The notes beneath the pieces are model-generated. The model searched no databases. It worked only from the letters and a program-made list of their open reading frames with translations, and was not told where the DNA came from. A stretch of DNA of 6,532 nucleotides from Oscillospiraceae bacterium (GTDB lineage Bacteria; Bacillota_A; Clostridia; Oscillospirales; Ruminococcaceae): assembly GCA_017400025.1 (NCBI GenBank), contig JAFQAF010000369.1, positions 1 to 6,532 on the forward strand, written 5' to 3'. Made by a program: the position numbers and the translations under genes. Positions within the stretch are counted from its first letter, which is position 1. The number at the start of each line of letters is the position of its first letter. Shown one piece after another: positions 2,247 to 6,532 of this stretch.

Positions 2247-2261
2247 AGGTGGAGTTTTTTT
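2233..2261 (+). terminator. Rho-independent terminator overlapping the GNAT stop codon
   Basis: AACTCCACCT (2233-2242) pairs perfectly with AGGTGGAGTT (2247-2256) around the loop TTGA, followed by seven T (2255-2261). The left arm encodes the last residues of the acetyltransferase (E-L-H-L) and the TGA stop (2244-2246) lies in the loop, so the hairpin begins inside the gene. Confidence 0.93.
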
Positions 2262-2408
2262 GTGGGAAGCTGTTGAAGCGTATATCCGGAAAATGGATAG
2301 AGTGAAAGGCTGTTTATGTGCAGAACGGGGAATTTTCGGCAATTTTTTTGACGTAATGTACAAATATATTTCAAAAAAACAACAAAAAATATTTATAAAG
2401 TAGATTAT
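2262..2408. other. non-coding stretch upstream of the pfl promoter
   Basis: I find no gene, RNA or repeat here. The second half is A/T-rich, with A runs at about 2372-2390. This may favour DNA bending upstream of the pfl promoter, but the runs lie too far upstream to act as a standard UP element for the -35 at 2430. Confidence 0.5.
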
Positions 2409-2423
2409 TGTGATTTACTCACA
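2409..2423. promoter_or_regulatory. inverted repeat TGTGA-N5-TCACA, candidate operator
   Basis: TGTGA (2409-2413) and TCACA (2419-2423) are perfect inverted half-sites separated by TTTAC. They resemble CRP/FNR-superfamily or Rex half-sites, but those normally have six bases between the arms, so the regulator is not identified. The centre lies about 50 bases before the predicted start of the pfl transcript, a position suited to an activator. The repeat directly abuts the next one. Confidence 0.5.
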
Positions 2424-2439
2424 GTTAGCTTGTGCTAAC
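2424..2439. promoter_or_regulatory. inverted repeat GTTAGC-N4-GCTAAC over the pfl -35
   Basis: GTTAGC (2424-2429) and GCTAAC (2434-2439) are perfect inverted arms around TTGT. The -35 hexamer candidate TTGTGC (2430-2435) lies in the middle, so a protein bound here would touch RNA polymerase directly. This is an operator candidate; the regulator is unknown. Confidence 0.5.
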
Positions 2440-2459
2440 CTACTGTTTTTATGTATAAT
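2430..2459 (+). promoter_or_regulatory. pfl operon promoter
   Basis: The -10 TATAAT (2454-2459) is perfect. The best -35 is TTGTGC (2430-2435) with an 18-base spacer, matching only three of six consensus positions. A perfect -10 with a poor -35 is the usual form of an activator-dependent or regulated promoter. The start would be near 2466, giving a leader of about 67 bases before pflB. Confidence 0.72.
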
Positions 2460-2464
2460 ATAGG

Positions 2465-2484
2465 TGTAATAAGAATTTATTACA
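2465..2484. promoter_or_regulatory. 20-base palindrome at the pfl transcription start
   Basis: TGTAATAA (2465-2472) and TTATTACA (2477-2484) are perfect inverted arms around GAAT. It sits on the predicted start point, five bases after the -10, where a bound repressor would block transcription. The AT-rich arms and four-base centre recall redox-sensing Rex operators (TTGTTAA-N4-TTAACAA), but the bases match only partly, so assignment to Rex is a guess. Confidence 0.55.
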
Positions 2485-2532
2485 TCATATCAATTTCACA
2501 TTTTTCAATAAATACATAAAGGAGACACGATT

Positions 2533-4632
2533 ATGCCTCATATGCATGAAAACTGGTACAGCTTCAAACCTGCAACCTGGGTGAACCGGATTAACGTAAG
2601 AAGCTTTATCAAACATAACTATACACCTTACGATGGCGACGAAAGCTTCCTGGCTGGTCCTACACGTAACACTCTTGACCTGTGGCTGCAGGTAAGGGAA
2701 CTGTCAAACGAAGAAATGGCCAAAGGTGGCGTTCTGGATATGGACACAGAAGTGATTTCCACAATTACTTCCCATGGCCCGGGCTACCTCAACAAGGAAA
2801 AAGAAACAATTGTAGGTTTCCAGACTGACAAACCTTTCAAGCGTGCACTTATGCCATACGGCGGTATAAGAATGGCTGAAAAAGCCTGCGCTGACAACGG
2901 CTATAAAGTAGATGAAAAAATCAGCGAATTTTTCACAGTACACAGAAAAACACACAACGCAGGTGTTTTTGATGCATACACACCGGAAATGAGAGCCTGC
3001 CGCTCCAGCCATATTATCACAGGTCTGCCTGATGCTTACGGCCGTGGCCGTATCATCGGTGACTACCGCAGAATCGCTCTGTATGGTGTGGACAGACTGA
3101 TTGAAGACAAAAATGAACAGAAGGCTTCTACAGAAAAGGTAATGAGCGAAGACAACATCCGTCTGCGTGAAGAACTTTCCGAACAGATTCGTGCACTGCA
3201 GGAACTGAAGAAAATGGCAGCAAGCTACGGCTTTGACATTTCACAGCCTGCAAAAGACGTAAAAGAAGCTATTCAGTGGACATACTTTGGTTATCTGGCT
3301 GCAGTAAAGGAACAGAACGGCGCTGCAATGTCCCTGGGCAGAACATCCACATTCCTGGATATCTACGCACAGCGTGACCTTGACAACGGTGTTTACACAG
3401 AAGAACAGATTCAGGAATTTGTTGACCATTTCATCATGAAACTGCGTATGGTAAAATTTGCTCGTACACCTGAATACAATGCACTGTTCTCCGGCGACCC
3501 TCAGTGGGTAACAGAATCCATAGGCGGTGTTGGCGTAGACGGCAGACATATGGTAACAAAAATGTCTTACCGCTATCTCCATACACTGGACAACCTTGGT
3601 TCTTCTCCGGAACCAAACCTTACAGTTCTCTGGTCTGTACATCTGCCTGAAAACTTTAAACGCTACTGTGCAAAAATGTCCATCGAAACATCATCCATCC
3701 AGTATGAAAACGATGACCTGATGAGAGTGACACATGGCGATGACTATGCTATCGCCTGCTGTGTATCTTCCATGAGAGTGGGTAAAGAAATGCAGTTCTT
3801 CGGCGCCCGTGCAAACCTGGCAAAATGCCTGCTGTATGCTATCAACGGCGGTGTAGACGAAGTTTCCAGAAAACAGGTTGGCCCTAAATACAGACCAATC
3901 ACAAGTGAATACCTGGATTATGATGAAGTAATGGAAAAATACGATGCTATGATGAAATGGCTGGCTGAAGTTTATGTAAATGCACTGAACATCATTCACT
4001 ATATGCACGACAAATACTGCTATGAAAAAATCCAGATGGCTCTTCACGACAGAGATGTAACAAGATGGTTTGCAACAGGTATTGCAGGTCTGTCTGTAGT
4101 TGCTGACTCACTGTCTGCTATCAAATATGCAAAAGTTAAAGTAATCCGTGACGAAACAGGTTTTGCTACAGACTATGAAGTAGAAGGCGATTTCCCTAAA
4201 TACGGCAACGACGATGACAGAGTAGACGAACTGGCAAAAGAAATTGTTCACAGATTTATGGAACACATCAGAAAGATACCTACATACAGAAACGGTATTC
4301 CTACAACTTCCATCCTTACAATCACATCAAACGTAGTGTACGGCAAAGCTACAGGTTCCACACCTGACGGCCGTAAACGCGGTGAAGCATTTGCTCCGGG
4401 TGCAAACCCAATGCACCGCCGTGACACACACGGTGCAGTTGCTTCTATGGCTTCTGTTGCCAAACTGCCATTTATCGATGCACAGGACGGTATTTCCAAT
4501 ACATTCTCCATCATTCCTGGCGCACTGGGCAAAGAAGACAGAATCTTTATGGGCGACCTCGACATCGAACTGGACTGTTCCACAGGTGCCTGTGCAACAC
4601 CTACACTGTTTGAAGGTCTTGACGCTGAATAA
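2533..4632 (+). CDS. pflB: formate C-acetyltransferase (PFL), large subunit lacking the glycyl-radical domain
   Basis: This 699-residue protein is the catalytic core of pyruvate formate-lyase, which converts pyruvate + CoA to acetyl-CoA + formate in the anaerobic cytoplasm. It follows E. coli PflB closely as I recall that sequence. The N-terminal [28 protein letters not shown] block, [23 protein letters not shown] (about 158-180) and the active-site [27 protein letters not shown] are present. Cys409-Cys410 correspond to the catalytic Cys418-Cys419. Similarity runs on through [23 protein letters not shown] and [12 protein letters not shown] (to residue 669). The usual C-terminal glycyl-radical segment is absent. 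In its place is a 30-residue tail (670-699) with a Cys-x4-Cys (C682, C687) and an acidic end, closed by tandem TAA TAA. The missing segment is encoded by the next gene. The ribosome binding site AAAGGAG (2518-2524) lies eight bases before the ATG. The gene largely avoids the ATA isoleucine codon common in the neighbouring genes, a sign of high expression. Confidence 0.96.
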
Positions 4633-4640
4633 TAACTATC

Positions 4641-4647
4641 AGGAGGA
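4641..4647 (+). promoter_or_regulatory. strong ribosome binding site of the glycyl-radical subunit
   Basis: AGGAGGA lies seven bases before the ATG at 4655, in the 22-base gap after pflB. It is a near-perfect Shine-Dalgarno sequence and shows that the small frame is initiated independently rather than being a frameshifted remnant of pflB. Confidence 0.93.
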
Positions 4648-4654
4648 ATAAACA

Positions 4655-4897
4655 ATGATTGCATCCAAATCCCAGATTGACAACCTTGTAAGCCTGCTGG
4701 ACGGCTATATGTCACAGGGCGGTCACCACCTTAATGTAAACGTTTTCACAAGAGAAACTCTGCTGGACGCTCAGGCTCACCCTGAAAAATATCCACAGCT
4801 GACAGTACGCGTAAGCGGTTATGCTGTAAACTTTGTAAAACTCACAAAGGAACAGCAGGACGAAGTTATCTCCAGAACATTCCACGATAAAATCTGA
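4655..4897 (+). CDS. stand-alone PFL glycyl-radical domain protein (small subunit)
   Basis: This 80-residue protein is the C-terminal segment of pyruvate formate-lyase made as a separate polypeptide. [22 protein letters not shown] (10-31) matches the PFL stretch just before the radical site. [27 protein letters not shown] (34-60) carries the radical motif, with Gly55 equivalent to Gly734 of E. coli Pfl[19 protein letters not shown] is the normal PFL C-terminus. E. coli YfiD/GrcA (about 127 residues) also provides this domain in trans, but it has an unrelated N-terminus and works as a spare part beside a complete PflB. Here the partner lacks the domain entirely, so this protein should be an obligatory subunit that inserts its glycine loop next to Cys409-Cys410. 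Database names such as GrcA-like or glycine radical domain protein would fit. It lies in the pfl operon, 22 bases after pflB and two bases before pflA. Oxygen would be expected to cleave it at Gly55. Confidence 0.94.
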
Positions 4898-4899
4898 TT

Positions 4900-5655
4900 A
4901 TGAAAGGCTATATTCATTCTGTTGAAAGCTTTGGCACTGTTGATGGCCCCGGCCTGCGCTTTGTGGTGTTCTTTCAGGGCTGCCCAATGCGCTGCCGGTA
5001 CTGCCACAATCCTGACACCTGGCAGCCCAATACCGGCATGCAGATGTCTGCTGAAGAGATAATGGCACAGTTTATGCGCAACAAAGGTTTTTACACCAAC
5101 GGCGGAATAACCGTCACCGGTGGCGAACCCCTGCTGCAGATTGATTTTCTCACAGAGCTTTTCATCCTGGCCAAAAAGGAAAATATACATACCTGTATTG
5201 ATACTTCCGGTGTTACATATAACCGGGACAATGCGGTGTATATGGAAAAGCTGGACAGACTGATGGAATATACAGACCTTGTTATGCTGGACCTGAAGCA
5301 CATAGATGACGAAAAGCATATAAGCCTCACCGGTCACACCAACAGGAATATCCTTGAGTTTGTAAAATACCTGGACAGAAAAAATATTCCGGTGTGGGTA
5401 AGACATGTTGTTGTCCCTACAGTGACAGACGACCCTGTTTACTGGGACAGACTGGGCAGATTTATGGCTTCTCTTTCCAATGTAAAAGCCCTGGATGTAC
5501 TGCCTTATCACACAATGGGTGTGAAAAAGTACCGGGAAATGGGTATGGAATATCCTCTTGCAGGTGTTCCCGCCCGGGATAAAGAGCTGGCTGTAAAAGC
5601 AAGACAGGCTATTATCAACGGTATGAAACAGGCCAGAGCAGAAAAAAACATATAA
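4900..5655 (+). CDS. pflA: pyruvate formate-lyase activating enzyme (radical SAM)
   Basis: This 251-residue radical-SAM enzyme uses a [4Fe-4S] cluster and S-adenosylmethionine to generate the glycyl radical on PFL. The cluster motif is C28-x3-C32-x2-C35 (CPMRCRYC) followed by HNPDTW. The opening IHSVESFGTVDGPGLRFVVFFQGC is the standard PflA N-terminus. T-x-x-GGEP (GGEP at 74-77) is the SAM-binding motif. DLVMLDLKHIDD (126-137), VWVRHVVVP and LPYHTMG continue the family pattern, and the length is close to the 246 residues of E. coli PflA. Its target glycine should be Gly55 of the neighbouring 80-residue protein. The ATG lies two bases after that gene's TGA and no Shine-Dalgarno sequence precedes it, so translation is probably coupled to the small subunit. 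Unlike pflB, it uses ATA codons often, which suggests lower expression. Confidence 0.96.
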   Translation: MKGYIHSVESFGTVDGPGLRFVVFFQGCPMRCRYCHNPDTWQPNTGMQMSAEEIMAQFMRNKGFYTNGGITVTGGEPLLQIDFLTELFILAKKENIHTCIDTSGVTYNRDNAVYMEKLDRLMEYTDLVMLDLKHIDDEKHISLTGHTNRNILEFVKYLDRKNIPVWVRHVVVPTVTDDPVYWDRLGRFMASLSNVKALDVLPYHTMGVKKYREMGMEYPLAGVPARDKELAVKARQAIINGMKQARAEKNI

Positions 5656-5693
5656 AAACAACAGGCACTGCAGTAAACTGCGGTGCCTGTTTT
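5654..5693. terminator. bidirectional terminator between pflA and the MFS gene
   Basis: AACAGGCACTGCAG (5660-5673) pairs with CTGCGGTGCCTGTT (5678-5691) around TAAA, giving 14 pairs with one G-U. On the plus strand TTTT follows (5690-5693). On the minus strand the complement of A5654-5658 supplies a T5 run. It can therefore end both the pfl operon and the convergent transporter transcript. The plus-strand T run is short, so leakage in that direction is possible. Confidence 0.87.
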
Positions 5694-5735
5694 GTATCTG
5701 ATGTTTTCTGCAATTAAACAGATAAATACATTTTT

Positions 5736-6532
5736 TTATTCTGCTTTGTCTCTGGCAGCCATTTTGCTCAGGGTGATGAATACAAAGATTGCCACTGCAT
5801 TTACCACTGCCCACATCAGCCATGCCATACGGTAGCTGCCGGTAGCATCGTAAATCATAGATGTGATAGGAGAGCCGATAGCAGTACCAATGCTGGAGAA
5901 GCTTGCTACATTGCCGTAAATGGCGCTGTAGTCTTTTTTGCCGAACATTGTCTGTGTGTTGATCGGGTAGCCTACTGTTGTGTATGCAATACCCAGACCG
6001 GAAATAATGATACCTGCATAAAGGAATGTTGTGTTTACTGCAGATGCATAGCAAGCAGCAGCACTTACAAGGCAGATAAGGCTCATTACTGTGGTGAAGA
6101 GAGAACCTTTCTTGTCATAAATCTGGCCGAGAATAACCTTGCATGCGGCCAGAACGCCAAGACTCAGTGCAGACAGGCTGGCGGCAACAGTAGGGTCAAA
6201 GCCCAGGTCTGTTACATAAGGTGAAACATTCTGTACCATTGAACAGGCTGCTGCGGAAGAAAGTGTAACCAGCGGCAGGAACATCCAGAAGTATGGTTTC
6301 TTTCTTGCCTGGGCCAGTGTCATACCGTCATCGGCTGCAGGTGCATCAACAGATGTTTTCACTGCGCCGCCTACAGGTTCCAGGCCTTTTTCTGCTGGAT
6401 AATCCTTGAGGATAAATACTGTGCATGGAACAACCAGCACAAACATAAGTACAGCCAGATAGAAGTATGTATTTCTCCAGCCAACATTTGCAATCAGCTG
6501 GCCGATGATTGGCTGCAGTATCATACCGCCCA
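5736..6532 (-). CDS. MFS transporter, oxalate/formate-antiporter or monocarboxylate type (5' end outside window)
   Basis: At least 264 residues of a major facilitator superfamily permease are visible, ending at a TAA (5736-5738). The frame is still open at the window edge, where Gly-Gly precedes the first visible Met, so that Met is internal and roughly the first four helices are missing. Seen are GQLIANVGWRNTYFYLAVLM (helix 5 end into helix 6), a loop with KDYPAEKGLEPVG, then MTLAQARKKPYFWMFL and six further hydrophobic segments. The last cytoplasmic helix turn includes GQIYDKKGS, the repeat of the MFS loop motif. The pairing of a PE-x-GL-P loop with TL-A-x-x-PxFW before helix 7 is typical of the OFA and monocarboxylate-porter groups. 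The substrate is not determined; carboxylates such as formate, oxalate, lactate or pyruvate are reasonable. The gene converges on the pfl operon. Its promoter is outside the window. Confidence 0.88.
   Translation of the reverse strand, partial: GGMILQPIIGQLIANVGWRNTYFYLAVLMFVLVVPCTVFILKDYPAEKGLEPVGGAVKTSVDAPAADDGMTLAQARKKPYFWMFLPLVTLSSAAACSMVQNVSPYVTDLGFDPTVAASLSALSLGVLAACKVILGQIYDKKGSLFTTVMSLICLVSAAACYASAVNTTFLYAGIIISGLGIAYTTVGYPINTQTMFGKKDYSAIYGNVASFSSIGTAIGSPITSMIYDATGSYRMAWLMWAVVNAVAIFVFITLSKMAARDKAE

Follow-up and report, generated by a model that had tools for sequence, protein, structure and literature searches.

A split pyruvate formate-lyase of Clostridia with a separate glycyl-radical domain and a putative cysteine module on the core tail or on a third small protein

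Described systems and the genes of the locus

Passages of a 2025 paper (PMC12590467) describe most glycyl radical enzymes, pyruvate formate-lyase (PFL) included, as homodimers of a single polypeptide, and they state that further accessory subunits are possibly unidentified or unannotated. The accessory subunits covered in these passages include BSS beta and gamma and HPAD gamma, small proteins with cysteines that accompany a glycyl radical enzyme and bind [4Fe-4S] clusters, in HiPIP-like folds in the case of BSS; the C-terminus of BSS beta touches the glycyl-radical domain (GRD), and hardly any product is formed when this C-terminus is deleted. A GRD can also stand alone, as in YfiD/GrcA (PDB 6owr), GrcA2 and GrcA3 (NCBIfam NF038360). 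For E. coli, passages of PMC8683613 report that a PFL truncated before its GRD (tPFL) attains wild-type-level activity once YfiD carries the radical in trans, with the binding of tPFL and YfiD being undetectable and activation 32-fold lower. According to the same passages, residues 696-733 of cleaved PFL are a proposed recognition element for YfiD, and the 60-residue N-terminal region of YfiD is important for binding to the cleaved enzyme.

The DNA described here is a stretch of 6,532 nucleotides from an Oscillospiraceae bacterium (assembly GCA_017400025.1, contig JAFQAF010000369.1), referred to below as the window, in which all features lie on the forward strand unless stated otherwise. The enzyme that it encodes shares with the PFL of E. 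coli (PflB or formate C-acetyltransferase; PDB 1h16 and 2pfl) the cysteine pair, the radical glycine and the family of the activase, but its core and GRD are separate chains and the core carries in addition a cysteine tail. The core (2533..4632, 699 aa) scores 1114.6 bits against the PFL model TIGR01255 (cut-off 994.2) and matches positions 2-666 of the 744 in this model, while positions 664-744 are matched by a protein of 80 aa (4655..4897), the two jointly spanning the whole model. The alignment with E. coli PFL extends over aa 7-673 of the core and over aa 9-77 of the GRD, the latter with one 5-residue gap. The codons for the active-site residues Cys409 and Cys410 are located at 3757-3762, and that of the radical glycine, Gly55 in the sequence VRVSGYAV, which is aligned with Gly734 of E. 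coli PFL, is at 4817-4819. The GRD gene begins 22 bp after the core gene, has its own ribosome-binding site (AGGAGGA, 4641-4647, read from the sequence), and its stop codon lies 2 bp before the gene for the PFL-activating enzyme PflA (4900..5655, 251 aa), which scores 295.6 bits against TIGR02493 (cut-off 231.75). The first-pass annotation had proposed that the core stops before the GRD and that RVSGYAV is on a separate small protein, and both the reading frames and the TIGR01255 matches bear this out, as they do its placement of the catalytic residues and of the ribosome-binding site.

The window core thus has the TIGR01255 score, the adjacent active-site cysteines and the dedicated radical-SAM activase of a PFL, but the radical glycine is not on its own chain, and judged by its sequence it is a split PFL variant and not a canonical PflB. 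Both cysteines and their context are invariant in all 43 split cores aligned, as is the context of the radical glycine in 23 aligned GRDs. The GRD, in turn, scores above the cut-off of NF038360 (165.5 bits against 158), a model named 'autonomous glycyl radical cofactor GrcA3', and it shares RVSGYAV with the YfiD/GrcA proteins. However, it differs from YfiD in lacking the long disordered N-terminal arm of 60 residues (its homology to other GRDs begins at residue 4-9), in being encoded between a core and pflA, and in having as its partner a core devoid of any GRD, a situation that extends to the genomes of relatives considered below. Beyond the LGK motif, the core ends in a tail (aa 668-699, 4534..4629, with a GDLDIEL stretch), the alignment with E. 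coli PFL ending at aa 673. A new tail after LGKED had been recognised in the first-pass annotation and it is present; however, it is not arbitrary. Its last part (aa 680-699, 4570..4629, including C682 and C687) is a conserved cysteine module, overlooked at that stage, which can be aligned to the C-terminal half of a third small protein found in relatives. The AlphaFold2 model of the core (43 sequences) has a mean pLDDT of 69.5, with the tail below 50, and is weak for placing the tail.

A terminator-like hairpin of 14 pairs (5660..5691), having the longest stem among the region's 6 terminator-like sites (chance expectation 3.2), would close the unit of core, GRD and pflA. A promoter scan of 2250-5760 gave 5 sites (7.0 expected), none of which is upstream of the core. 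The leader contains a perfect inverted repeat, GTTAGC-ttgt-GCTAAC (2424..2439), a candidate operator judged from the sequence, and inspection by eye found in it TGTGA-TTTAC-TCACA at 2409-2423 and an extended TGTATAAT at 2452-2459; the leader elements at 2409-2459 may act as a redox operator. Further upstream, two GNAT acetyltransferases and a PAP2 phosphatase (6-551, 866-1708 and 1713-2246) have no apparent link to the PFL unit, and a tRNA-Leu with the anticodon CAA (639-725) lies between two genes. Convergent with the PFL unit, a partial MFS transporter is encoded on the reverse strand (5736-6530); its top NCBIfam match is an L-lactate MFS transporter, below the cut-off, with the oxalate/formate antiporter family also matched, and it is possibly a carrier of fermentation acids.

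Distribution and phylogeny of the split enzyme

A scan of contigs matched at least 591 stretches, of which 584 were confirmed, and the 80 loci most GRD-like were retained, so that this sample is biased to close kin. A core homologue is found just upstream of the GRD in 79 of the 80 loci; it is a separate ORF in 78 loci and is fused to the GRD in one (L075), and in the remaining locus (L070) the 413 bp upstream of the GRD contain no recognisable core. A full-length PFL elsewhere in the genome, which the first-pass annotation had named among the findings that would speak against its reading if it accounted for all activity, was sought with TIGR01255 in 21 genomes from among those of the 80 loci, namely 20 split genomes and that of L075, all of them genomes of relatives of the source organism. 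No fused PFL above the cut-off is present in 19 of the 20 split genomes, the exception being G015. Because the split PFL is the sole PFL above the cut-off in these 19 genomes, its GRD looks like an obligate subunit and not a spare, and the earlier view that the two genes make up one PFL, with the split form as its normal state, is supported. One genome (G017, that of L058) has a second stand-alone GRD gene (C44:22849-23082) on a contig different from that of the core gene.

The class to which G012 (L041, Ruminococcus sp. YE71) belongs was sampled more widely, with 291 genomes; a TIGR01255 match over the cut-off is present in 148 and a match to the GrcA3 profile at E<=1e-30 in 151, and at least 18 of these 291 Clostridia genomes contain a stand-alone GRD ORF (open frame of 78-106 aa). 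For 17 of these 18 genomes there is no other GRD-profile match at E<=1e-30 among the matches listed, the exception being G276, which like G015 has a fused PFL beside the split one; as most of the genomes searched in this work are metagenome or unnamed assemblies of unstated completeness, such absences are soft.

In a tree based on 111 cores, all of the split cores except L126 (genome G213) form one clade within the fused PFLs (SH-aLRT 99), and L075 is nested inside this clade. When the tree is extended by PDB 38la and seven Coriobacteriia-type cores (P0196, the database entry for 38lb, and six relatives), a single clade (SH-aLRT 93) unites all 88 split rows with L075, 38la and the 7 Coriobacteriia rows; in it 38la pairs with L126 (SH-aLRT 95), and the clade minus these two has a support of 99. 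Both trees were built by a quick method with no bootstrap, and the branch of L126 is long; the grouping of the split cores into one clade suggests a single origin. The members of the deepest pair, 38la and L126, end directly after the LGK motif with no tail, the end of 38la being possibly that of the construct. Based on its place inside the split clade, L075 (1937-4237) is read as a re-fusion; its linker retains CGCEEVTC and its C-terminus reads HCCM, and it is alone among 23 fused loci in having cysteines between the LGK motif and the GRD. The Coriobacteriia-type cores (P0196-P0314) have ends such as CGCC or CACC in place of Cx4C, and their weak placement as sister to an Erysipelotrichaceae core (SH-aLRT 70) hints at horizontal transfer. 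Olsenella, a member of the Coriobacteriia, and Thermophilibacter, both relatives of 38lb, likewise have cores that lack a GRD.

The first-pass annotation was unsure whether a layout of this kind had been described, and the split itself is already visible to others through the NCBIfam GrcA3 model and two PDB chains named 'Formate acetyltransferase' (38la_A and 38lb_A), which align to the window core at E 0, lack a GRD and fall within the split clade (38lb by way of P0196). Of these, 38lb comes from a Coriobacteriia-like lineage and matches P0196 (718 aa), which has a cysteine-rich tail, and 38la ends directly after LGKED, which may be a natural end or that of the construct. No match was obtained between the chains of 38la or 38lb and either the window GRD or the third protein of L069, and the two entries are absent from the matches of the structure comparison (library to 2026-04-08). 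In the open-licence PMC literature, preprints aside, no paper was found on a split, two-part or stand-alone-GRD PFL or on GrcA3, and the same literature gave no description of a glycine-less third protein or of a cysteine tail. What is new here is that the tail of the core matches the end of the third small protein and that this third protein is a glycine-less relative of the GRD.

The third small protein and the cysteine module

The records examined for these features were the window, L001-L080 and L111-L150, or 121 in all (L081-L110 were excluded as short copies), of which 95 are split, 23 fused and 3 incomplete; L120 (genome G226) was dropped due to its frameshifted core, leaving 94 split loci. 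The gap between core and GRD measures 165-446 bp in many of these relatives, against at most 120 bp otherwise, and each long gap contains an ORF (open frame of 66-126 codons), so that a third protein is present between core and GRD in 43 of the 94 loci. This ORF is coding and under purifying selection, dN/dS being 0.04-0.39 in the six pairs with measurable dS (two of the eight pairs were saturated). An RNA element in the long gaps was also considered; however, when the window and nine loci were searched against Rfam, the tRNA of the window was the only match, and such an element was dismissed because the gaps contain an ORF under purifying selection.

The N-terminal half of the third protein resembles the N-terminal half of the GRD (profile-profile comparison, 31 columns, E 5.4e-8) and is related to the stretch starting near residue 683 of E. 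coli PFL, and the radical loop is present in none of the 43 proteins. Their C-terminal half contains Cys-x(4-6)-Cys-x(1-2)-Pro in 41 of 43 cases, and in the 40 that were aligned only the second cysteine and a proline are invariant, L052, which has no proline, being outside this alignment. Of eight third proteins tried, none has a Pfam match above the cut-off and five have weak partial NCBIfam matches to the N-half of GrcA3; the sole one compared with the PDB, that of L069, has no match at E below 1. A structural model (pLDDT 63) consists of one helix with short bridge or strand pieces, and no fold is deduced from it. Where databases name the third protein, it is a hypothetical or uncharacterized protein.

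When 391 genomes of the class were searched with a third-protein profile (A2, built from 40 members), 10 full-length matches (E<=2e-17) were obtained, all ten of them in genomes with a stand-alone GRD. Six of these genomes (G283, G108, G300, G074, G223 and G012) had contributed members to the profile, and the independent finds are therefore G264, G388, G172 and G129. The profile also matches the cysteine tails of two split cores (G128 and G126). The other matches listed involve only the N-half of the profile and frames that are stand-alone GRDs or, mostly, of the length of a fused PFL, and where positions are comparable they fall on the N-half of a GRD; among the matches listed, none of full length is to a genome for which only a fused PFL is known. 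The gene for the third protein of G172 (L112 and L175) is located downstream of the GRD instead of upstream, and the core tail there has no cysteine.

When the tail module of the window core is aligned with the end of the third protein of L061, the score is 77 (1000 shuffles gave at most 50), and by this comparison the core tail carries the same module as the cysteine end of the third protein. The distribution of the two is as follows: 43 of the 94 split loci have the third protein without tail cysteines, 47 have two or more tail cysteines without the third protein, none has both, and four (L112, which is from G172, L115, L122 and L126) have neither. Under a stricter motif, with L120 included, the corresponding numbers are 44 with the third protein, 38 with the tail, 0 with both and 13 with neither, 9 of these 13 retaining at least two cysteines in a degenerate motif. 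The Fisher p of 3e-22 for this exclusion is overstated, as the related loci are not independent, some of them being near-copies (L019 and L113 have identical cores). In a tree-based test, where each trait shows at least 8 changes, 5 independent pairs differ in the third protein, and the tail differs in the opposite sense in 3 of them and is unchanged in 2 (sign test p 0.25). The exclusion of tail and third protein thus appears striking, but it reflects few independent events. In the class-wide draw, at least 22 genomes have a stand-alone GRD, comprising 10 with a third protein, 9 with a cysteine-bearing tail (including G226, whose core is broken) and 3 with neither (G175, G213 and G276).

Among database entries, at least two tail cysteines are present in 118 of the best 120 relatives of the window core, a redundant list of nearest kin. 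The corresponding list for 38lb, likewise redundant and drawn from its nearest kin, has them in 119 of the 119 relatives counted of the best 120 (P0066 was counted in the list of the window core), with ends such as PDCGCC. Two entries, P0065 (805 aa) and P0066 (821 aa), were considered as natural fusions and rejected, as an internal stretch of the core is repeated in them.

Interpretation of the split enzyme

The split, its conservation, the clade formed by the split cores, the absence of a fused PFL above the cut-off from most split genomes searched, and the third protein with its relation to the tail are read directly from the sequences. From them we infer, with high probability, a functional PFL in which the GRD is permanently a separate subunit; the complex, the transfer of the radical and any role of the cysteine module are putative. 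In such an enzyme the core would provide the barrel and the Cys409-Cys410 pair, the 80-aa GRD would supply the missing barrel strand and the glycine loop, and PflA, encoded by the next gene of the unit, would place the radical on Gly55. Once the small subunit is docked, Gly55 would hand the radical to Cys410, and pyruvate and CoA would be converted to acetyl-CoA and formate. A split enzyme of this kind would require a permanent fix for the binding of its GRD, and its active site would be open whenever the GRD is away. The likeliest job of the Cys-x4-Cys module would then be to serve the empty radical pocket during this time, with the N-half of the third protein, or the cysteine end carried by the core, occupying or serving the open pocket. 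The module may act as a placeholder or as a thiol.

A more specific proposal, which we advance tentatively and regard as possible but not probable, is that the split PFL is a three-part machine consisting of the core, a replaceable GRD and a glycine-less GRD relative whose cysteine end guards or re-reduces the Cys409-Cys410 pocket as long as no radical subunit is docked. The N-half of the third protein would stand in for the barrel strand, with the cysteine pair as a thiol tail, and as the lineage of the window carries the cysteine end on the C-terminus of the core, the function would there be exerted in cis. In class I ribonucleotide reductase, a swinging C-terminal cysteine pair (C754/C759 of E. 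coli NrdA) re-reduces the active site. The flexible C-terminal Cys-x4-Cys of the split PFL is similar to that tail, but this is an analogy only and no homology is claimed; we know of no link of the module to thioredoxin. If the three-part proposal is correct, it would, to our knowledge, be the first case of a dummy radical domain in a glycyl radical enzyme.

The module can also be viewed as a metal or [4Fe-4S] site which, in the manner of the BSS and HPAD accessory subunits, controls the GRD. A site of this kind would fit the occurrence of small proteins with cysteines next to a glycyl radical enzyme, the contact of BSS beta with the GRD that is described in passages of PMC12590467, and the Coriobacteriia-type tails with clusters such as CGCC. 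However, most of the 51 two-gene tails have just two cysteines (two in 39, three in 7, four in 1 and none in 4), the N-half of the third protein is homologous to the GRD, only the second cysteine and the proline are invariant in the 40 aligned third proteins, and neither the PDB search with one third protein (E below 1) nor the Pfam searches with eight (above the cut-off) gave a match; a metal site is possible, though less likely than not. Alternatively, the module could serve as a tag for docking, by which PflA or the GRD is recruited, the cysteines being only structural. The N-half of the third protein is indeed related to part of the E. coli 696-733 stretch, for which a role in the recognition of YfiD is proposed in passages of PMC8683613. 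However, a recognition element should not require a near-invariant cysteine, the deepest split branch (38la and G213) shows no tail in the available sequences, and the only third-protein match of G213 is its GRD; a docking tag, too, is possible, though less likely than not.

It is very unlikely that the window GRD is a spare part of the YfiD/GrcA type, which rescues damaged PFL, instead of the normal radical subunit. The NCBIfam name of the family implies such a rescue role, and the homology of the GRD to YfiD (6owr) is clear; however, the partner core ORF ends before the GRD in the 94 split loci and hence has no GRD to lose, 19 of the 20 split genomes searched contain no fused PFL above the cut-off to rescue, and the GRD is without the N-terminal region which, according to passages of PMC8683613, is important to YfiD in binding cleaved PFL. 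It is extremely improbable that the pair represents a fused PFL in decay or wrongly assembled, due to a frameshift or as a pseudogene. The core and the GRD do lie in different frames, and the core of one relative (L120) is frameshifted; however, gene ends and spacing are the same from locus to locus, the window GRD gene is preceded by a ribosome-binding site of its own, and no catalytic residue varies among the aligned relatives. For the group as a whole, a frameshift or assembly error is ruled out by this recurrence together with four further database entries of 699 aa that are 99-100% identical to the window core, and a sequencing error at the window locus appears unlikely.

The reading of the locus as a PFL with a permanently separate GRD bears on a central fermentation enzyme of gut bacteria, which consists of two proteins here and of three in many relatives. 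Current annotation hides the parts of this one enzyme, as its GRD is named a cofactor by NCBIfam and its third protein is called hypothetical or uncharacterized. If the GRD is truly exchangeable, then damage by oxygen would cost the cell a piece of 80 residues and not an enzyme of 700 residues, and if the cysteine module guards the open pocket, it would represent a new way of handling the exposed active site of a radical enzyme. The split PFL together with its module would be a case of an overlooked accessory subunit in the central metabolism of gut anaerobes.
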